Positions 20,873-36,944 of a stretch of DNA of 37,024 bases are shown here, piece by piece; the stretch's first letter is position 1; every line of letters begins with the position of its first letter. The stretch is from assembly GCA_020060385.1 (NCBI GenBank), contig JAGVAH010000121.1:1-37024 (forward strand). Direction: 5' to 3'. The notes beneath the pieces are model-generated. The model saw nothing but the letters and a program-made list of their open reading frames with translations, was not told where the DNA came from and ran no database searches. This DNA is from Syntrophobacterales bacterium (GTDB lineage: Bacteria > Desulfobacterota > Desulfobaccia > Desulfobaccales > 0-14-0-80-60-11). The translations under genes and the position numbers were made by a program.

Positions 20873-21020
20873 GTAGCACCGCCCCCGGCCTGTGGGGGGC
20901 CCCGGGGCGTTTGGGTAACCAGGGGGACTTTAACTTGCTTGCTGTGAGGCTGCGGACGCCCAACCTTATCCCAACCCTTCCCGGGGCCGGGCCGGACTCA
21001 ACCGGCCCCGGGAAGGCAGG
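20873..21020 (+). repeat. Direct repeat unit A (about 148 bp, GC-rich)
   Basis: Starts at TAGCACCGCCCCCGGCC and ends at GGAAGGCAGG. It is nearly identical to 21131-21278, exactly 258 bp downstream. It contains a perfect 15-bp stem, CCTTCCCGGGGCCGG (20976-20990) with its complement at 21002-21016 and an 11-base loop. No T run follows. Confidence 0.85.
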
Positions 21021-21062
21021 CGCTCTCGGGCGGCCCTTGGCCGTCCCTGGCCGGAGCCCAAG

Positions 21063-21134
21063 ATGAGCATCAGTGCTTGGCTTCTCTCCCTGATCCTGGG
21101 GTTGATCTTTGTGATTCTCCTGAAGTTGAAGTAG
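21063..21134 (+). CDS. Possible 23-residue membrane microprotein, copy of MraY last helix
   Basis: ATG at 21063, TAG at 21132. The peptide MSISAWLLSLILGLIFVILL plus KLK is one hydrophobic helix with a basic end. Its core matches the MraY C-terminus (W-x-LSLILGL...LKL) and the DNA shares CTCTCCCTGATCCTGGGG with mraY. GGAG lies six bases before the ATG, so it could be translated. It lies inside the tandem repeat block between mraY and murD and on the same strand. It could equally be a dead remnant of a partial mraY duplication; conservation of the frame and of the small hydrophobic residues rather than random decay argues for a product. Function unknown; if made, it might associate with MraY or another membrane division protein. 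Confidence 0.45.
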   Translation: MSISAWLLSLILGLIFVILLKLK

Positions 21135-21278
21135 CATCGCCCCCGGCCTGTGGTGGGCCCCGGGGCGTTTGGGTAACCAGGGGGACCTTAACTTGCATAC
21201 TGTGAGGCTGCGGACGCCCAACCTTATCTCAACCCTTCCCGGGGCCGGGCCGGACTCAACCGGCCCCGGGAAGGCAGG
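21131..21278 (+). repeat. Direct repeat unit B (about 148 bp, GC-rich)
   Basis: Second copy of the unit at 20873, with only scattered differences. The 15-bp hairpin is repeated at 21234-21248 / 21260-21274. The 258-bp period also includes the MraY-tail-like ORF that ends at its left edge. Confidence 0.85.
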
Positions 21279-21344
21279 CTGTGTCGGGGGACCAGCGCAC
21301 TCGGCACACTCAGAGTCATTATTAGTTAACATACTCCTTACCCT

Positions 21345-21422
21345 CCCCCCTTTGAAAAAGGGGGGCTGGGGGGGATTTGTCAGCCCTGATAAATCCCCCT
21401 AAATCCCCTTTTTCAAAGGGGG
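21345..21422. repeat. CCCCCTTTG...CAAAGGGGG inverted repeat, intact copy
   Basis: Left arm 21345-21378 (CCCCCTTTGAAAAAGGGG...GGGGGATTT) and right arm 21391-21422 (AAATCCCCCTAAATCCCC...TCAAAGGGGG) form a long imperfect hairpin with a 12-base loop. A second, cut copy is at 36881. Confidence 0.8.
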
Positions 21423-21459
21423 ACTTTAAGAACCGTTTGCCGATAATGGCCGTTTCTTG

Positions 21460-24092: not shown

Positions 24093-25169
24093 ATGGACCT
24101 GAGGGTGGTCATTGCCGGGGGCGGCACCGGGGGGCATCTCTTCCCGGGGATCGCCATCGCCCAGGAGTTTCAGTCTTCCCTGGGAGCGGCCGTGACCTTC
24201 CTCACTACCCCCAAGGCGGTGACCGCCCGGATCCTGGAACGCTACGGCTTTCCCTGGGAAGTGATCGCCAGCCGGGCCTTAAAGGGGCAAGGACCGTGGA
24301 GCCGCATCCGCACTCTTATGGGCCTGCCGGGGAATGTCTGGGAGGCCCGGACCCGGCTCCGGACCCTGGCGCCGCACCTGGTCCTGGGCATGGGGGGCTA
24401 CGCCTCCGGGCCCGTGGGGGTGGCGGCCTATCTGTTGGGCCTCCCTTTGGTGATCCACGAGCAAAACGCCATCCCCGGGGTGGCCAACCGCTGGCTGGCC
24501 AAATTGGCCCGGCGCATATTTTTGTCCTTTCCGGACACCGCCGGCAGTTATCCCCGGGAGCGGACGGTGTGGACCGGCAACCCCATCCGGCCGGAATTTT
24601 TGGCGCCGCCCCCGGAGCGGCCCGAAACGCCCTTTACGGTGCTGATCATGGGGGGGAGCCAGGGCGCGCACAGTCTCAACCTGGCAGCCCTGGGGGCCCT
24701 GCCCTTGCTGGCGGACCTTAAGGGGCAACTTAACTTTCTGCACATCACCGGCAAGGAGGACCGGGAGGAAGTGGCCGAGGGTTACCAAAAGGCCGGTTTT
24801 GCCGCGGCGGTGGCTGATTTCACCCCGGAGGTGCCCGCCTGGATGGGCCGGGCCCATCTGGCGGTCTGCCGGGCCGGGGCCTCCACCCTGGCGGAGCTCA
24901 CGGCCCTGGGGCGGGCCGCGTTGCTGGTCCCTTTCCCTTTCGCGGCCAACAACCATCAGGAGTTTAACGCCCGCTTCCTGGCCGACGCGGGTGCCGCGGA
25001 ATTAATTTTGAATAAAGATTTTACCCCGGAGATTCTGGCTGATAAGATAAAACAATTCATATCGTCTCCCGATTCTTTGGCGGCCATGGAAACGGTCAGC
25101 CGCTCCCTGGCCAAGCCGGACGCGGCCCAAGAGATCGTCCGGGGCTGCCTGGATTTGCTGAAAATGTAA
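24093..25169 (+). CDS. murG: UDP-GlcNAc transferase MurG
   Basis: 358 aa from ATG at 24093, preceded by GGGGATGGAAA. The GT28 fold: N-terminal VVIAGGGTGGHLFPGIAIA, HEQNAIPGVANRWLA for lipid I and membrane contact, IMGGSQGAHSLN, and CRAGASTLAELTALG for UDP-GlcNAc. It makes lipid II from lipid I at the inner membrane. An upstream in-frame stretch of 54 codons is derived from spacer repeats and is not included. The normal next gene murC is displaced by a 1-kb insert. Confidence 0.96.
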   Translation: MDLRVVIAGGGTGGHLFPGIAIAQEFQSSLGAAVTFLTTPKAVTARILERYGFPWEVIASRALKGQGPWSRIRTLMGLPGNVWEARTRLRTLAPHLVLGMGGYASGPVGVAAYLLGLPLVIHEQNAIPGVANRWLAKLARRIFLSFPDTAGSYPRERTVWTGNPIRPEFLAPPPERPETPFTVLIMGGSQGAHSLNLAALGALPLLADLKGQLNFLHITGKEDREEVAEGYQKAGFAAAVADFTPEVPAWMGRAHLAVCRAGASTLAELTALGRAALLVPFPFAANNHQEFNARFLADAGAAELILNKDFTPEILADKIKQFISSPDSLAAMETVSRSLAKPDAAQEIVRGCLDLLKM

Positions 25170-25192: not shown

Positions 25193-25238
25193 ACGCCACC
25201 CCCACCCTAACCCTCCCCCCTCAAGGGGGAGGGGATAA
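25193..25238 (+). repeat. Left 46-bp terminal inverted repeat of the DUF559 element
   Basis: Starts ACGCCACCCCCACCCTAACC and ends AGGGGATAA. It is the exact reverse complement, over all 46 bases, of 25745-25790. Its inner half (CCCTCCCCCC-tcaa-GGGGGAGGGG) is itself a hairpin. Confidence 0.95.
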
Positions 25239-25266
25239 AACACTGGCTTTTGGGGGCTAAGTAGAT

Positions 25267-25620
25267 ATGAATGACCTTGTCGGTCTTTCCAGAAATCTAA
25301 GGAAAAACCAGACTGACGCGGAAAGCCGATTATGGCGGCATTTACGGGGAAAAAACTTAGAAGGGTTAAGGTTCAGAAGGCAGCACCCCATCGGCAGATA
25401 CATTGTAGACTTCGTCTGCCTTGAAAAACGATTGGTCCTGGAAATTGACGGCGGCCAGCACGGAGAGGAAGCAGGGCAAATCAAAGATAACGAACGGGAT
25501 CATTGGTTAAGGACGGAAGGATACCAGGTCTTAAGATTTTGGAATAACGACGTCTTAACCAACCTGGAAGGCGTCATGGACATGATAAGGGCAAATGTCC
25601 TCCCTGATTCTGAAGACTGA
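25267..25620 (+). CDS. DUF559 family, PD-(D/E)xK nuclease-like protein
   Basis: 117 aa. The compact Vsr/restriction-endonuclease-like fold is visible as SRNLRKNQTDAESRLWRHL, FRRQHPIGRYIVDFVC with D48, and LVLEIDGGQH with E59, D61 and H65; these are the expected metal-binding residues of DUF559 (PF04480). A later DHWLRTEGYQVLRFWNNDVL is the conserved C-terminal strand-helix. The active site looks intact, so a DNA nick or cut is plausible but unproven. The gene is less GC-rich than its neighbours and is framed by the 46-bp inverted repeats. Start ATG at 25267 has only a distant GGGGG upstream. Confidence 0.9.
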   Translation: MNDLVGLSRNLRKNQTDAESRLWRHLRGKNLEGLRFRRQHPIGRYIVDFVCLEKRLVLEIDGGQHGEEAGQIKDNERDHWLRTEGYQVLRFWNNDVLTNLEGVMDMIRANVLPDSED

Positions 25621-25744
25621 TAGAAAAAAGATACTCAATAAAACTGATGGCAAACCAAAAAAAGAAAACTGCCAACATACGAAGAGCATAAAAAAAGAAT
25701 GAGCCAAAAAGCACTTTCGCCAAAAAGCACCGATGTCTTTGCTC

Positions 25745-25790
25745 TTATCCCCTCCCCCTTGAGGGGGGAGGGTTAGGGTGGGGGTGGCGT
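25745..25790 (-). repeat. Right 46-bp terminal inverted repeat of the DUF559 element
   Basis: Exact reverse complement of 25193-25238. The 124 bases between the DUF559 stop and this repeat hold no ORF but include two short GC(C)AAAAAGCAC repeats (25703-25730). Confidence 0.95.
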
Positions 25791-25868
25791 CTTAAATGCG
25801 GTAGATGGGACAAGGAAGTCTGACTCCATATATGTAGGATTTTGTCATTTCGCAAGGGAGATTTCGAC

Positions 25869-26180
25869 ATGGAGGTTTGTAAAAACAAAATTTCTAATCG
25901 ATACTTTATTTTTATTGAGGATACTGGTAATGCTGAGACGCTTCTTGTAACGCCAGAAGCTCAAATCAAATCTTTGAAGGGTGATCTTTTTGAAGAACTA
26001 GAAGACCAGGAAGAAAATTATCTACTGCAACATAATCTAGTCACAGAGGCTCAAGTCCAACGGGTTCACGAATACTATAAAAGTCGTTCAGATGAGATCA
26101 TTGATAATTTTGAGGAAATGTCACACTATGATCAGAAAAGACTTTTACAGGCACTGCAAAAAATGGTTGCCGATAAATAA
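25869..26180 (+). CDS. AT-rich orphan protein, unknown
   Basis: 103 aa from ATG at 25869, preceded by a good AAGGGAG site; an in-frame TTG 27 bases upstream is less likely. The base and codon use (many AAA, ATT, TTT, GAT) differ sharply from the GC-rich dcw genes on both sides. The protein is acidic, with a beta-like N-terminus (NRYFIFIEDTGNAETLLVTP) and two helical stretches (LFEELEDQEENYLL; VQRVHEYYKSRSDEIIDNF). No signal, membrane segment or known motif. It is 78 bases past the DUF559 element and probably arrived by transfer. Function not recognised; a small cytoplasmic accessory or immunity-like protein is only speculation. Confidence 0.7.
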   Translation: MEVCKNKISNRYFIFIEDTGNAETLLVTPEAQIKSLKGDLFEELEDQEENYLLQHNLVTEAQVQRVHEYYKSRSDEIIDNFEEMSHYDQKRLLQALQKMVADK

Positions 26181-26246: not shown

Positions 26247-27656
26247 ATGACTGATATCAAACACTACCACTTCATCGGCGTTGGCGGCATCGGCATGAGC
26301 GGCCTAGCGGAGCTCTTGGTGCGCCGCGGGCATGCGGTGAGCGGCTCCGACCTGGCGGCCAATGCCATCACCGCCCGCCTGGAGACCCTGGGGGTGCGTT
26401 TCCATGAGGGACATCAGCCGGAAAACCTGGGAGACGCCGATATCGTGGTCCATTCCACCGCGGTGCAGGAGGATAACCCGGAGCTGGCCGCGGCCCGGGC
26501 CCAGGGCCTGACGGTGCTGCGCCGGGGCGAGATGCTGGCCCGGCTGATGGCCGGACATTTCCAGATCGCCATCACCGGCGCCCACGGCAAGACTTCCACC
26601 ACCGCCATGGTGGCCGCCATCCTCCGGGCCGGGGGCCTGGACCCCACGGTGCTGGTGGGGGCCCTCTGGGACAGCCTGGGCTCCAACGCGGTCCTGGGCC
26701 GGGGCGAGTATTTCGTGGCCGAAGCGGATGAAAGCGACGCCTCCTTTGCCTATCTGCAGCCCCAGATCACGGTGATCACCAACCTGGACCGGGAACATCT
26801 GGATTATTACCGGGACCTGGCCCATATCCAGGAAACTTTCGCAGGTTATTTGGCCGCTCTCCGCCCGGACGCCCGGGTGGTGGCCTGGCGGGACGACCCC
26901 CACCTGGCCCCGGTTCTCCAGGCCGCCTGCCGGCCCTTGCTGACTTATAGCCTCCAACCGGGGGCCGACTTTCTCGCCGCGGAAATAGAACCCCGGGAAT
27001 TGGGCACCAGTTTCCGCCTCTTTTATCAGGCCCGGGACCTGGGCCGGGTGACCCTGCCTTTGACCGGCAGGCATTACGTGCTTAACGCCATGGCCGCCTG
27101 CGCGGTGGCCCAGACCCTGGGCCTGGATTTTTCCGTGTGGCGCCAGGGCTTGCAAGACCTGGGGCAGATTCACCGCCGCTGCCAGCCCAAGGGCGAGGCC
27201 CGGGGCATCCTGGTGCTGGACGACTACGGCCACCATCCCACGGAGATCAACACCACTATCAACGCCCTGGCCCAGGCCTTTCCGGAGCGCCGCCTGGTGG
27301 TGGCCTTCCAGCCCCACCGCTACAGCCGCACCCAGGCCCTGCTGCCGGACTTCTTCCCGGTCTTCGGCCAGGCCAAGATGGTCTTTGTCACCGAGATTTA
27401 CGGGGCCGGGGAAAGAAGGCTGGAAGGGGTCACAGGCCGGGCCATTTATGAAGGCATCCGCCATGCCGGCCACCCCGCGGTGCATTTCGTGGCGGAAAAC
27501 GGGATCACTGCGGATATTATTCTGGACCACCTGCACCCCGGGGACCTGGTCCTCACCCTGGGGGCCGGAGACATTTGGAAAACCGGGGAAGAGCTGCTGG
27601 CGCGGCTTAAAGCCAAGCCAGCCGAACTTGGCCAGCGCCTGCCGGGAGAAAAGTAA
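26247..27656 (+). CDS. murC: UDP-MurNAc:L-alanine ligase MurC
   Basis: 469 aa. N-terminal HFIGVGGIGMSGLAELL, P-loop ITGAHGKTSTTAMV, VAEADESDASF, and DDYGHHPTEI are the MurC signatures. It adds L-alanine to UDP-MurNAc, the first peptide step. No strong ribosome site precedes the ATG, and the sequence just upstream is AT-rich foreign DNA, so its translation signals may have been altered by the insert. The stop overlaps the ftsQ start (TAATG). murB and ddl, which often lie next, are missing. Confidence 0.95.
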   Translation: MTDIKHYHFIGVGGIGMSGLAELLVRRGHAVSGSDLAANAITARLETLGVRFHEGHQPENLGDADIVVHSTAVQEDNPELAAARAQGLTVLRRGEMLARLMAGHFQIAITGAHGKTSTTAMVAAILRAGGLDPTVLVGALWDSLGSNAVLGRGEYFVAEADESDASFAYLQPQITVITNLDREHLDYYRDLAHIQETFAGYLAALRPDARVVAWRDDPHLAPVLQAACRPLLTYSLQPGADFLAAEIEPRELGTSFRLFYQARDLGRVTLPLTGRHYVLNAMAACAVAQTLGLDFSVWRQGLQDLGQIHRRCQPKGEARGILVLDDYGHHPTEINTTINALAQAFPERRLVVAFQPHRYSRTQALLPDFFPVFGQAKMVFVTEIYGAGERRLEGVTGRAIYEGIRHAGHPAVHFVAENGITADIILDHLHPGDLVLTLGAGDIWKTGEELLARLKAKPAELGQRLPGEK

Positions 27657-36880: not shown

Positions 36881-36944
36881 CCCCCTTTGACAAAGGGGGG
36901 CTACGGGGGATTTTAATTGACCTTCTGAAATCCCCCTAAATCCC
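36881..36944. repeat. CCCCCTTTG inverted repeat, truncated copy
   Basis: Left arm CCCCCTTTGACAAAGGGGGG is complete, but the right arm stops at AAATCCCCCTAAATCCC; the expected CCTTTGTCAAAGGGGG is missing. AGCAGTGTCCGGTTAGGAAC follows instead. Confidence 0.75.

Follow-up and report, generated by a model that had tools for sequence, protein, structure and literature searches.

A DUF559 nuclease gene between inverted, predicted triplex-forming repeats at a murG-murC junction: a candidate minimal mobile element

What is a single small gene doing between two perfect inverted repeats at the murG-murC junction, and do the gene and its repeats belong together? The question is raised by a window of 37,024 nucleotides (the whole stretch of DNA that was analysed) from a Syntrophobacterales bacterium. 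A first-pass annotation had described 46-bp inverted ends around one DUF559 nuclease-like gene, with no transposase, and had proposed a minimal mobile or gene-conversion element that might have moved recently. Three features had been overlooked, and they are the subject of the present analysis: the arm is a dispersed repeat, its third tract is mirror-symmetric, and its link with DUF559 genes is general.

The unit and its nuclease

The structural description given by the first-pass annotation is accurate (Table 1). A repeat search of the window found the two arms to be 100% complementary over 46 nt, with a spacing of 506 nt, and DUF559 is the sole gene between them, with no transposase. The neighbours of the unit are murG, which ends at 25169, and murC, which starts at 26247. 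The same gap also contains, between the unit and murC, a small open reading frame (25842-26180, 112 aa) which has no family match but has a homologue with 73% identity at the same junction in one relative (G016). Further upstream, the gap between mraY and murD holds a direct repeat of about 240 bp with GC-rich hairpins (20880-21300).

Table 1. Features of the unit and of related repeats in the window
Feature	Position	Strand	Remarks
Whole unit, arm-gene-arm	25193..25790	.	598 bp, murG-murC junction
Left arm	25193..25238	+	46 bp; repeat search, triplex-motif finder match
Left arm, outer part	25193-25198
Left arm, C-rich mirror tract	25199-25207		CCCCCACCC
Left arm, linker	25208-25210		TAA
Left arm, hairpin stem	25211-25219		CCCTCCCCC
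Left arm, hairpin loop	25220-25224		CTCAA
Left arm, hairpin stem	25225-25233		GGGGGAGGG
Left arm, inner end	25234-25238		GATAA
DUF559 (PF04480) gene	25267..25620	+	117 aa; predicted nuclease, Vsr/EDxHD fold
Right arm	25745..25790	-	exact reverse complement of left arm; repeat search, triplex-motif finder
Right arm, stem	25750-25758	read on +	CCCTCCCCC, followed by the loop
Right arm, stem	25764-25772	read on +	GGGGGAGGG
Right arm, linker	25773-25775	read on +	TTA
Right arm, mirror tail	25776-25784	read on +	GGGTGGGGG
B-family (AAAGGGGGG-type) dispersed repeat, inverted doublet	21346..21425	.	between mraY and murD
B-family dispersed repeat, single copy	36881..36911	-	near window end

The encoded protein belongs to DUF559, scoring 139 bits against PF04480 (curated cut-off 20.6; E 6.6e-41, Pfam). 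Its AlphaFold model (pLDDT 84.9) gave as best solved structures in Foldseek 3HRL (3.3e-8), the catalytic domain of I-Bth0305I (3R3P, 1.8e-4) and Vsr (1VSR, 9.2e-3), and a profile match to I-Bth0305I was also obtained (E 0.0013). The modelled fold is that of Vsr and the EDxHD homing endonucleases, and the protein is a predicted nuclease. The four residues that had been singled out as nuclease residues (D48, E59, D61 and H65) are all invariant among 78 DUF559 proteins, as are E19, Q64 and D74. E. coli YcjD and NGO0050 (the protein of 3HRL) are likewise DUF559 proteins; triplex motifs lie directly 3' of E. coli ycjD and also near the NGO0050 gene. Two other assignments were rejected: a defence gene, for which the match to DpdF is weak and partial only, and kinship with the enterotoxin B chain, for which the weak PDB profile matches are chance local alignments.

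Arm architecture

The left arm is predicted to fold as a DNA hairpin (-11.7 kcal/mol, z -3.1), and the typical arm runs in the order pyrimidine stem, loop, purine stem, 3-nt linker and purine tail, with a tail that mirrors the purine strand of the stem and permits A or T opposite A. In the window this arrangement reads GGGGGAGGG-TTA-GGGTGGGGG; further arm types are GGGGGAAGG-CTG-GGATGGGGG, AAAGGGGGG-TTA-GGGGGGATT, GGGGGAGGA-TTG-AGGTGGGGG and GGGAGGGG..GGGGAGGG. Among 170 asymmetric stems, the fit of the tail across a linker of 3 is 0.91 in mirror order, 0.64 in direct order and 0.69 when permuted (s.d. 0.010, maximum 0.73); mirror order exceeds direct order in 140 stems and falls below it in 16, and the mirror fit at other linker lengths is at most 0.67. 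In the third tract G stands opposite G, and A stands opposite A or T at near-equal rates. A G facing G and an A facing either A or T are the rules of antiparallel purine-motif triplexes, which are established chemistry. The window arm has the stem, the short linker and the purine-motif third tract of an intrastrand triplex motif (TM/PIT), and is a predicted triplex former; the fold itself has been seen in vitro for the E. coli motif only (PMC4666352).

The tail is common rather than universal, since 12 loci, mostly from Alphaproteobacteria, have inverted hairpins with no tail detected. Five alphaproteobacterial loci and one gammaproteobacterial locus have arm hairpins that end in GTCG or a close variant of it, and in which no triplex tail was detected. 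That the G-tracts exist solely to form G-quadruplexes was considered and rejected, as AAAGGGGGG-TTA-GGGGGGATTT arms and the stem-by-stem co-variation of the mirror tract favour the third-strand rule; G-quadruplexes may form all the same. A search for an RNA element in Rfam gave no match.

Arms within the host genome

The first-pass annotation had proposed searching for the repeat with and without the gene. When used as a query against its own genome (4.15 Mb in 175 contigs), the unit matches about 45 further places, nearly all of them to the arms, which are a dispersed repeat. Exactly three DUF559 genes were detected in this genome and all three are bracketed by triplex-type arms of two families. 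The two genes outside the window are bracketed by the second family, AAATCCCCCCTAACCCCCCTTT..AAAGGGGGG, of which the genome contains 88 strict copies, against none of the reversed pattern. The same genome has 92 A1-type copies, yet no A1-type DUF559 gene.

Eight Y1/RAYT-like genes in the same genome provide an internal control for the pairing of DUF559 and arms, as these genes have palindromes of their own: seven of the eight carry different palindromes, several of GTAG type, and none is flanked by a DUF559-type arm pair. RAYT was therefore rejected as the driver of the arms, and the genome contains, side by side, two nuclease-repeat systems that are unrelated to each other.

Association across genomes and arm types

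The link extends well beyond this genome. Of 80 DUF559 loci from public genomes of many phyla, all but one (79/80) have inverted hairpins, triplex motifs or both within 400 bp of the gene, and the exception has degenerate arms by eye. Ungapped inverted repeats scoring at least 14 occur within 400 bp of 58 of the 80 genes vs 14 of 1792 windows of the same geometry in the same loci, and they bracket 57/77 DUF559 genes vs 3/401 other ORFs (Fisher p 1e-52). A triplex motif is present on both sides of 47/77 DUF559 genes and of 1/401 neighbouring ORFs, and on one side or both in 64/77 and 16/401, respectively; motif density is 28-fold around the DUF559 genes of this set. The motif pattern read backwards gives almost no matches. 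In relatives, nearly all stand-alone DUF559 genes are bracketed by inverted C/G-tract hairpins; DUF559 domains within large proteins (five loci) have no arms.

In a set of 158 genomes from the phylum, 40 of the 42 with a stand-alone DUF559 gene have the strict motif vs 36 of the 116 without (p 5.5e-14), and at family level the figures are 21/28 vs 6/39 (p 1e-6), kinship being corrected only roughly in these tests. At least 10 motifs are contained in 18 of the 116 genomes scored as DUF559-negative; the search for DUF559 presence is lossy: the E. coli control went unmatched, even though K-12 strains have ycjD, with a DUF559 annotation. The association of DUF559 with arms is thus general and obligate-looking, and the outcome that the first-pass annotation had named as refuting, repeats placed at random and unlinked to DUF559, was not seen. 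Since the arm pairing recurs in nearly every gene examined, in many phyla, the DUF559 nuclease is a good candidate for the agent that spreads triplex repeats.

Arm type also follows DUF559 phylogeny. When mapped onto a tree of 104 DUF559 proteins, arm class changes 22 times vs 43.1 for shuffled labels (0 of 200 shuffles reach so low a count), and a single clade contains every AAAGGGGGG arm. Several genomes have two DUF559 types, such as A-type and B-type, each of which keeps its own arms, and left and right arms recur in certain pairings of type (A with C; X with D). The relation of copy number to the cognate gene varies with arm type. Within one family, genomes with a B-type gene have 36-107 B-type copies and those without have 0-10, except for two with 44 and 65 (p 2e-4); the relation is weak for A1 (p 0.02) and absent for A (p 0.16). 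In one relative (G016) there is a tandem pair of B-type DUF559 genes with B-type arms between them and at both ends.

Boundaries, age and movement

The limits of the unit were examined in 47 pairs of DUF559 units with one short alignment spanning the gene. Relative to the outer arm edges, the median start of the alignment is 1 bp outside the left arm (37/47 within 20 bp) and its median end is 1 bp outside the right arm (44/47 within 20 bp). Two units, L152 of Deltaproteobacteria and L168 of Dadabacteria, are 80.4% identical over 418 bp, arm to arm, and share nothing else in 8-10 kb; a Thiobacillus unit (L131) and its counterpart (L136) are likewise homologous from arm to arm only, and no shared neighbouring proteins were found around cross-lineage pairs. 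Conserved arms amid drifting flanks could yield part of the boundary sharpness among close relatives but do not account for the cross-phylum cases. Because homology across phyla ends at the arms in unrelated contexts, the unit appears to be a module delimited by its arms and transferred between lineages. There is no excess of direct repeats, as expected of a target-site duplication, at the edges of 69 units, and with the transposase absent as well the unit differs from an insertion sequence or MITE.

At the murG-murC junction itself, the comparison with relatives that had been suggested found some with the unit and some without it. The unit is present in G014, G016 and G017, and absent from G013, G015, G018 and G006-G008; in G011, G012 and G009 a DUF559 gene lies beside murC. 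In G016 the reading frame of the gene is broken and both arms are intact. The loop variant is the same in both arms of a genome and differs between genomes (CTCAA in the host genome, G000, and in G014, CTCGCA in G016), a pattern seen in few events that suggests concerted change. The murG-murC copy is an old insertion whose arms are kept matched within each genome. Recent movement, which the perfect ends had seemed to indicate, is unsupported, as the unit occupies the same junction in G014, G016 and G017. The broader proposal of a minimal mobile or gene-conversion element is strengthened by DUF559-linked repeats across phyla, by boundaries at the arm edges and by arm types that track protein clade.

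Strains of E. coli vary in the presence of the motif. Two loci, trpS-yhfZ and yhjG-yhjE, alternate between the motif, a REP-type repeat or neither; no clean insertion or duplication was found at these two loci, and the differences between alleles take in the entire intergenic sequence. The median number of additional close motif copies is 3 in strains that have ycjD vs 1 in those that lack it (p 5e-5), a difference confounded by phylogroup. At sapF-fabI, ycjD alternates with the eef operon; a clean empty site there was considered and rejected, since the E. coli loci that lack ycjD hold that operon.

A proposed mechanism and its alternatives

The reading that we favour, and consider somewhat probable, is a minimal mobile element, present here in one copy, whose DUF559 nuclease acts on its own arms. 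Such an element would consist of a gene for a DUF559 nuclease of 100-120 residues and two inverted arms able to form a hairpin or triplex, in about 420 bp. The nuclease would recognise its own arm class, arm copies lacking the gene, single or paired, would disperse within the genome, and on occasion the complete unit would pass from one genome to another. We infer that DUF559 may cut or nick at or near the folded arms, for example while these are single-stranded in the course of replication, and that repair of the break may copy the arm or the unit, in a manner akin to homing or gene conversion. Hydrolytic nucleases of the Vsr type lack any joining chemistry. Because of this, and because target duplications are lacking, dispersal is probably by cleavage and copy-repair and not by cut-and-paste, a preference also favoured by the matching of arms within a genome and the allele-wide differences in E. 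coli. No direct transposition of the unit was seen, and the age of the murG-murC unit, the lack of target-site duplications, the E. coli alleles without a clean insertion, the motif-rich genomes scored as DUF559-negative, the weak relation of copy number to the gene for A1 and its lack for A, and the A1-type copies of a host genome with no A1-type gene weigh against a mobile element.

These same observations bear on other explanations. DUF559 might be a housekeeping nuclease for repair or for particular structures, like Vsr, with the hairpins serving as its own terminators or regulators and nothing moving; the common Vsr fold in Foldseek and vertical retention at murG-murC and at E. coli sapF-fabI agree with this, as does Caulobacter VsrA, a protein with a DUF559 domain that has been linked both to DNA damage and to a cytosine methyltransferase (PMC12907096). 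We regard this as unlikely, since it leaves unexplained why arms are copied from tens to more than 100 times elsewhere, why homology across phyla ends at both arms in unrelated contexts and why arm type tracks protein clade; moreover, earlier work, as cited in PMC4666352, attributed no promoter or terminator activity to the E. coli motif. Spread of the repeats by RAYT or another transposase, with DUF559 genes as passengers or opportunists at hairpins, is less likely still. It would fit the eight RAYT-like genes of the host genome and the many DUF559-negative genomes that have the motif, but those RAYT genes bear unrelated palindromes and never a pair of DUF559-type arms, the motif hardly ever brackets ORFs other than DUF559, and no transposase or integrase was found near the motif by Holder et al. 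(PMC4666352).

A strict selfish homing endonuclease, by which DUF559 would cut the empty allele of one site and be copied in, with the arms as cut or recognition sites, is a rather improbable account of the whole. The arms are dispersed widely and not confined to one target, units occur in many contexts beyond the one junction at which they are present or absent among relatives, and the DNA-binding extension of I-Bth0305I is missing; the similarity to its catalytic domain in Foldseek and in the profile search, the presence or absence of units at that junction and the arms matched within each genome nevertheless speak for strict homing. That GC-rich palindromes flank a small gene by mere coincidence can practically be dismissed: two-copy short repeats often arise by chance, but the excess of bracketing inverted repeats over other ORFs in the same loci and the near absence of matches to the backward-read pattern are hard to attribute to it.

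Should the mobile-element reading hold, two orphan observations would explain each other, namely a large nuclease family with no settled role and a widespread triplex repeat with no known spreader. It is possible, though we would put it somewhat below an even chance, that DUF559 proteins recognise and propagate natural triplex repeats, that the unit is the smallest known autonomous-looking element (about 420 bp) and the first with triplex ends, and that YcjD offers a testable model. The 25-year-old question of why PIT/BoxC elements exist and how they multiply would become testable in E. coli K-12, a strain in which ycjD and the repeats occur together, and the enzyme family may be one that reads triplex or mirror-hairpin DNA.

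Comparison with known systems

The closest relatives of the arms are the PIT/BoxC/TM repeats. The work of Holder et al. on this motif reportedly comes after that of Hoyne and Maher. The G/C-rich intrastrand triplex motif is present in more than 260 bacterial genomes, with 23 copies in E. coli K-12, and forms a stable triplex in vitro with no in vivo footprint; no transposase, integrase, associated mobility gene or class of flanking gene was reported for it (Holder et al. 2015 NAR, PMC4666352). Like the window arms, these repeats have the architecture of class II purine-motif triplexes with a second loop of TTA (type A) or CCG (type B), and are intergenic and present in many copies, including inverted pairs that combine both types. 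Unlike the motif as published, a nuclease family is tied to it here, the stem types AAAGGGGGG, GGGGGAAGG, GGGGGAGGA and GGGAGGGG are added, and some arms have no third tract. CGTC-tagged REPs, which are dispersed palindromes found chiefly in Alphaproteobacteria, have been reported without a dedicated transposase (PMC3733652, Di Nocera 2013); their tag differs from that of the GTCG-ended alphaproteobacterial DUF559 arms, for which a relation to them is possible.

Among nucleases of the same fold, the EDxHD homing endonuclease I-Bth0305I (3R3P) shares the fold of its catalytic domain with DUF559, whereas the DUF559 unit has neither intron or intein nor an extra DNA-binding region and is bounded by dispersed arms. 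Vsr, YcjD and NGO0050 (3HRL) also have this fold and the genes of the latter two have arms or motifs alongside; we know of no arm association for Vsr (1VSR) itself.

In its general plan the unit most resembles the REP/RAYT (TnpA-REP) pairs and REPINs, which likewise combine a small nuclease gene with inverted palindromes and with dispersed singlets and doublets. RAYT is an HUH Y1 tyrosine transposase with GTAG-tagged REPs. DUF559, by contrast, has a hydrolytic PD-(D/E)xK/Vsr fold and its arms are mirror-tailed. As in a REPtron, the gene is flanked by inverted palindromes with dispersed copies; however, the gene between them is DUF559 and not a Y1 HUH transposase, and in place of a GTAG tag at the stem foot the arm has the ends ACGCCA.../...GATAA and a TAA linker. 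By analogy, the unit would work like a REP/RAYT pair, yet it falls outside the REPtrons on both enzyme and tag. No literature linking DUF559 or YcjD to inverted repeats, BoxC or triplex motifs was found among open-licence papers. The parts are each known separately, and no description of the system was found in the literature searched; it would be a mobile element that relies on a hydrolytic nuclease instead of a transposase.
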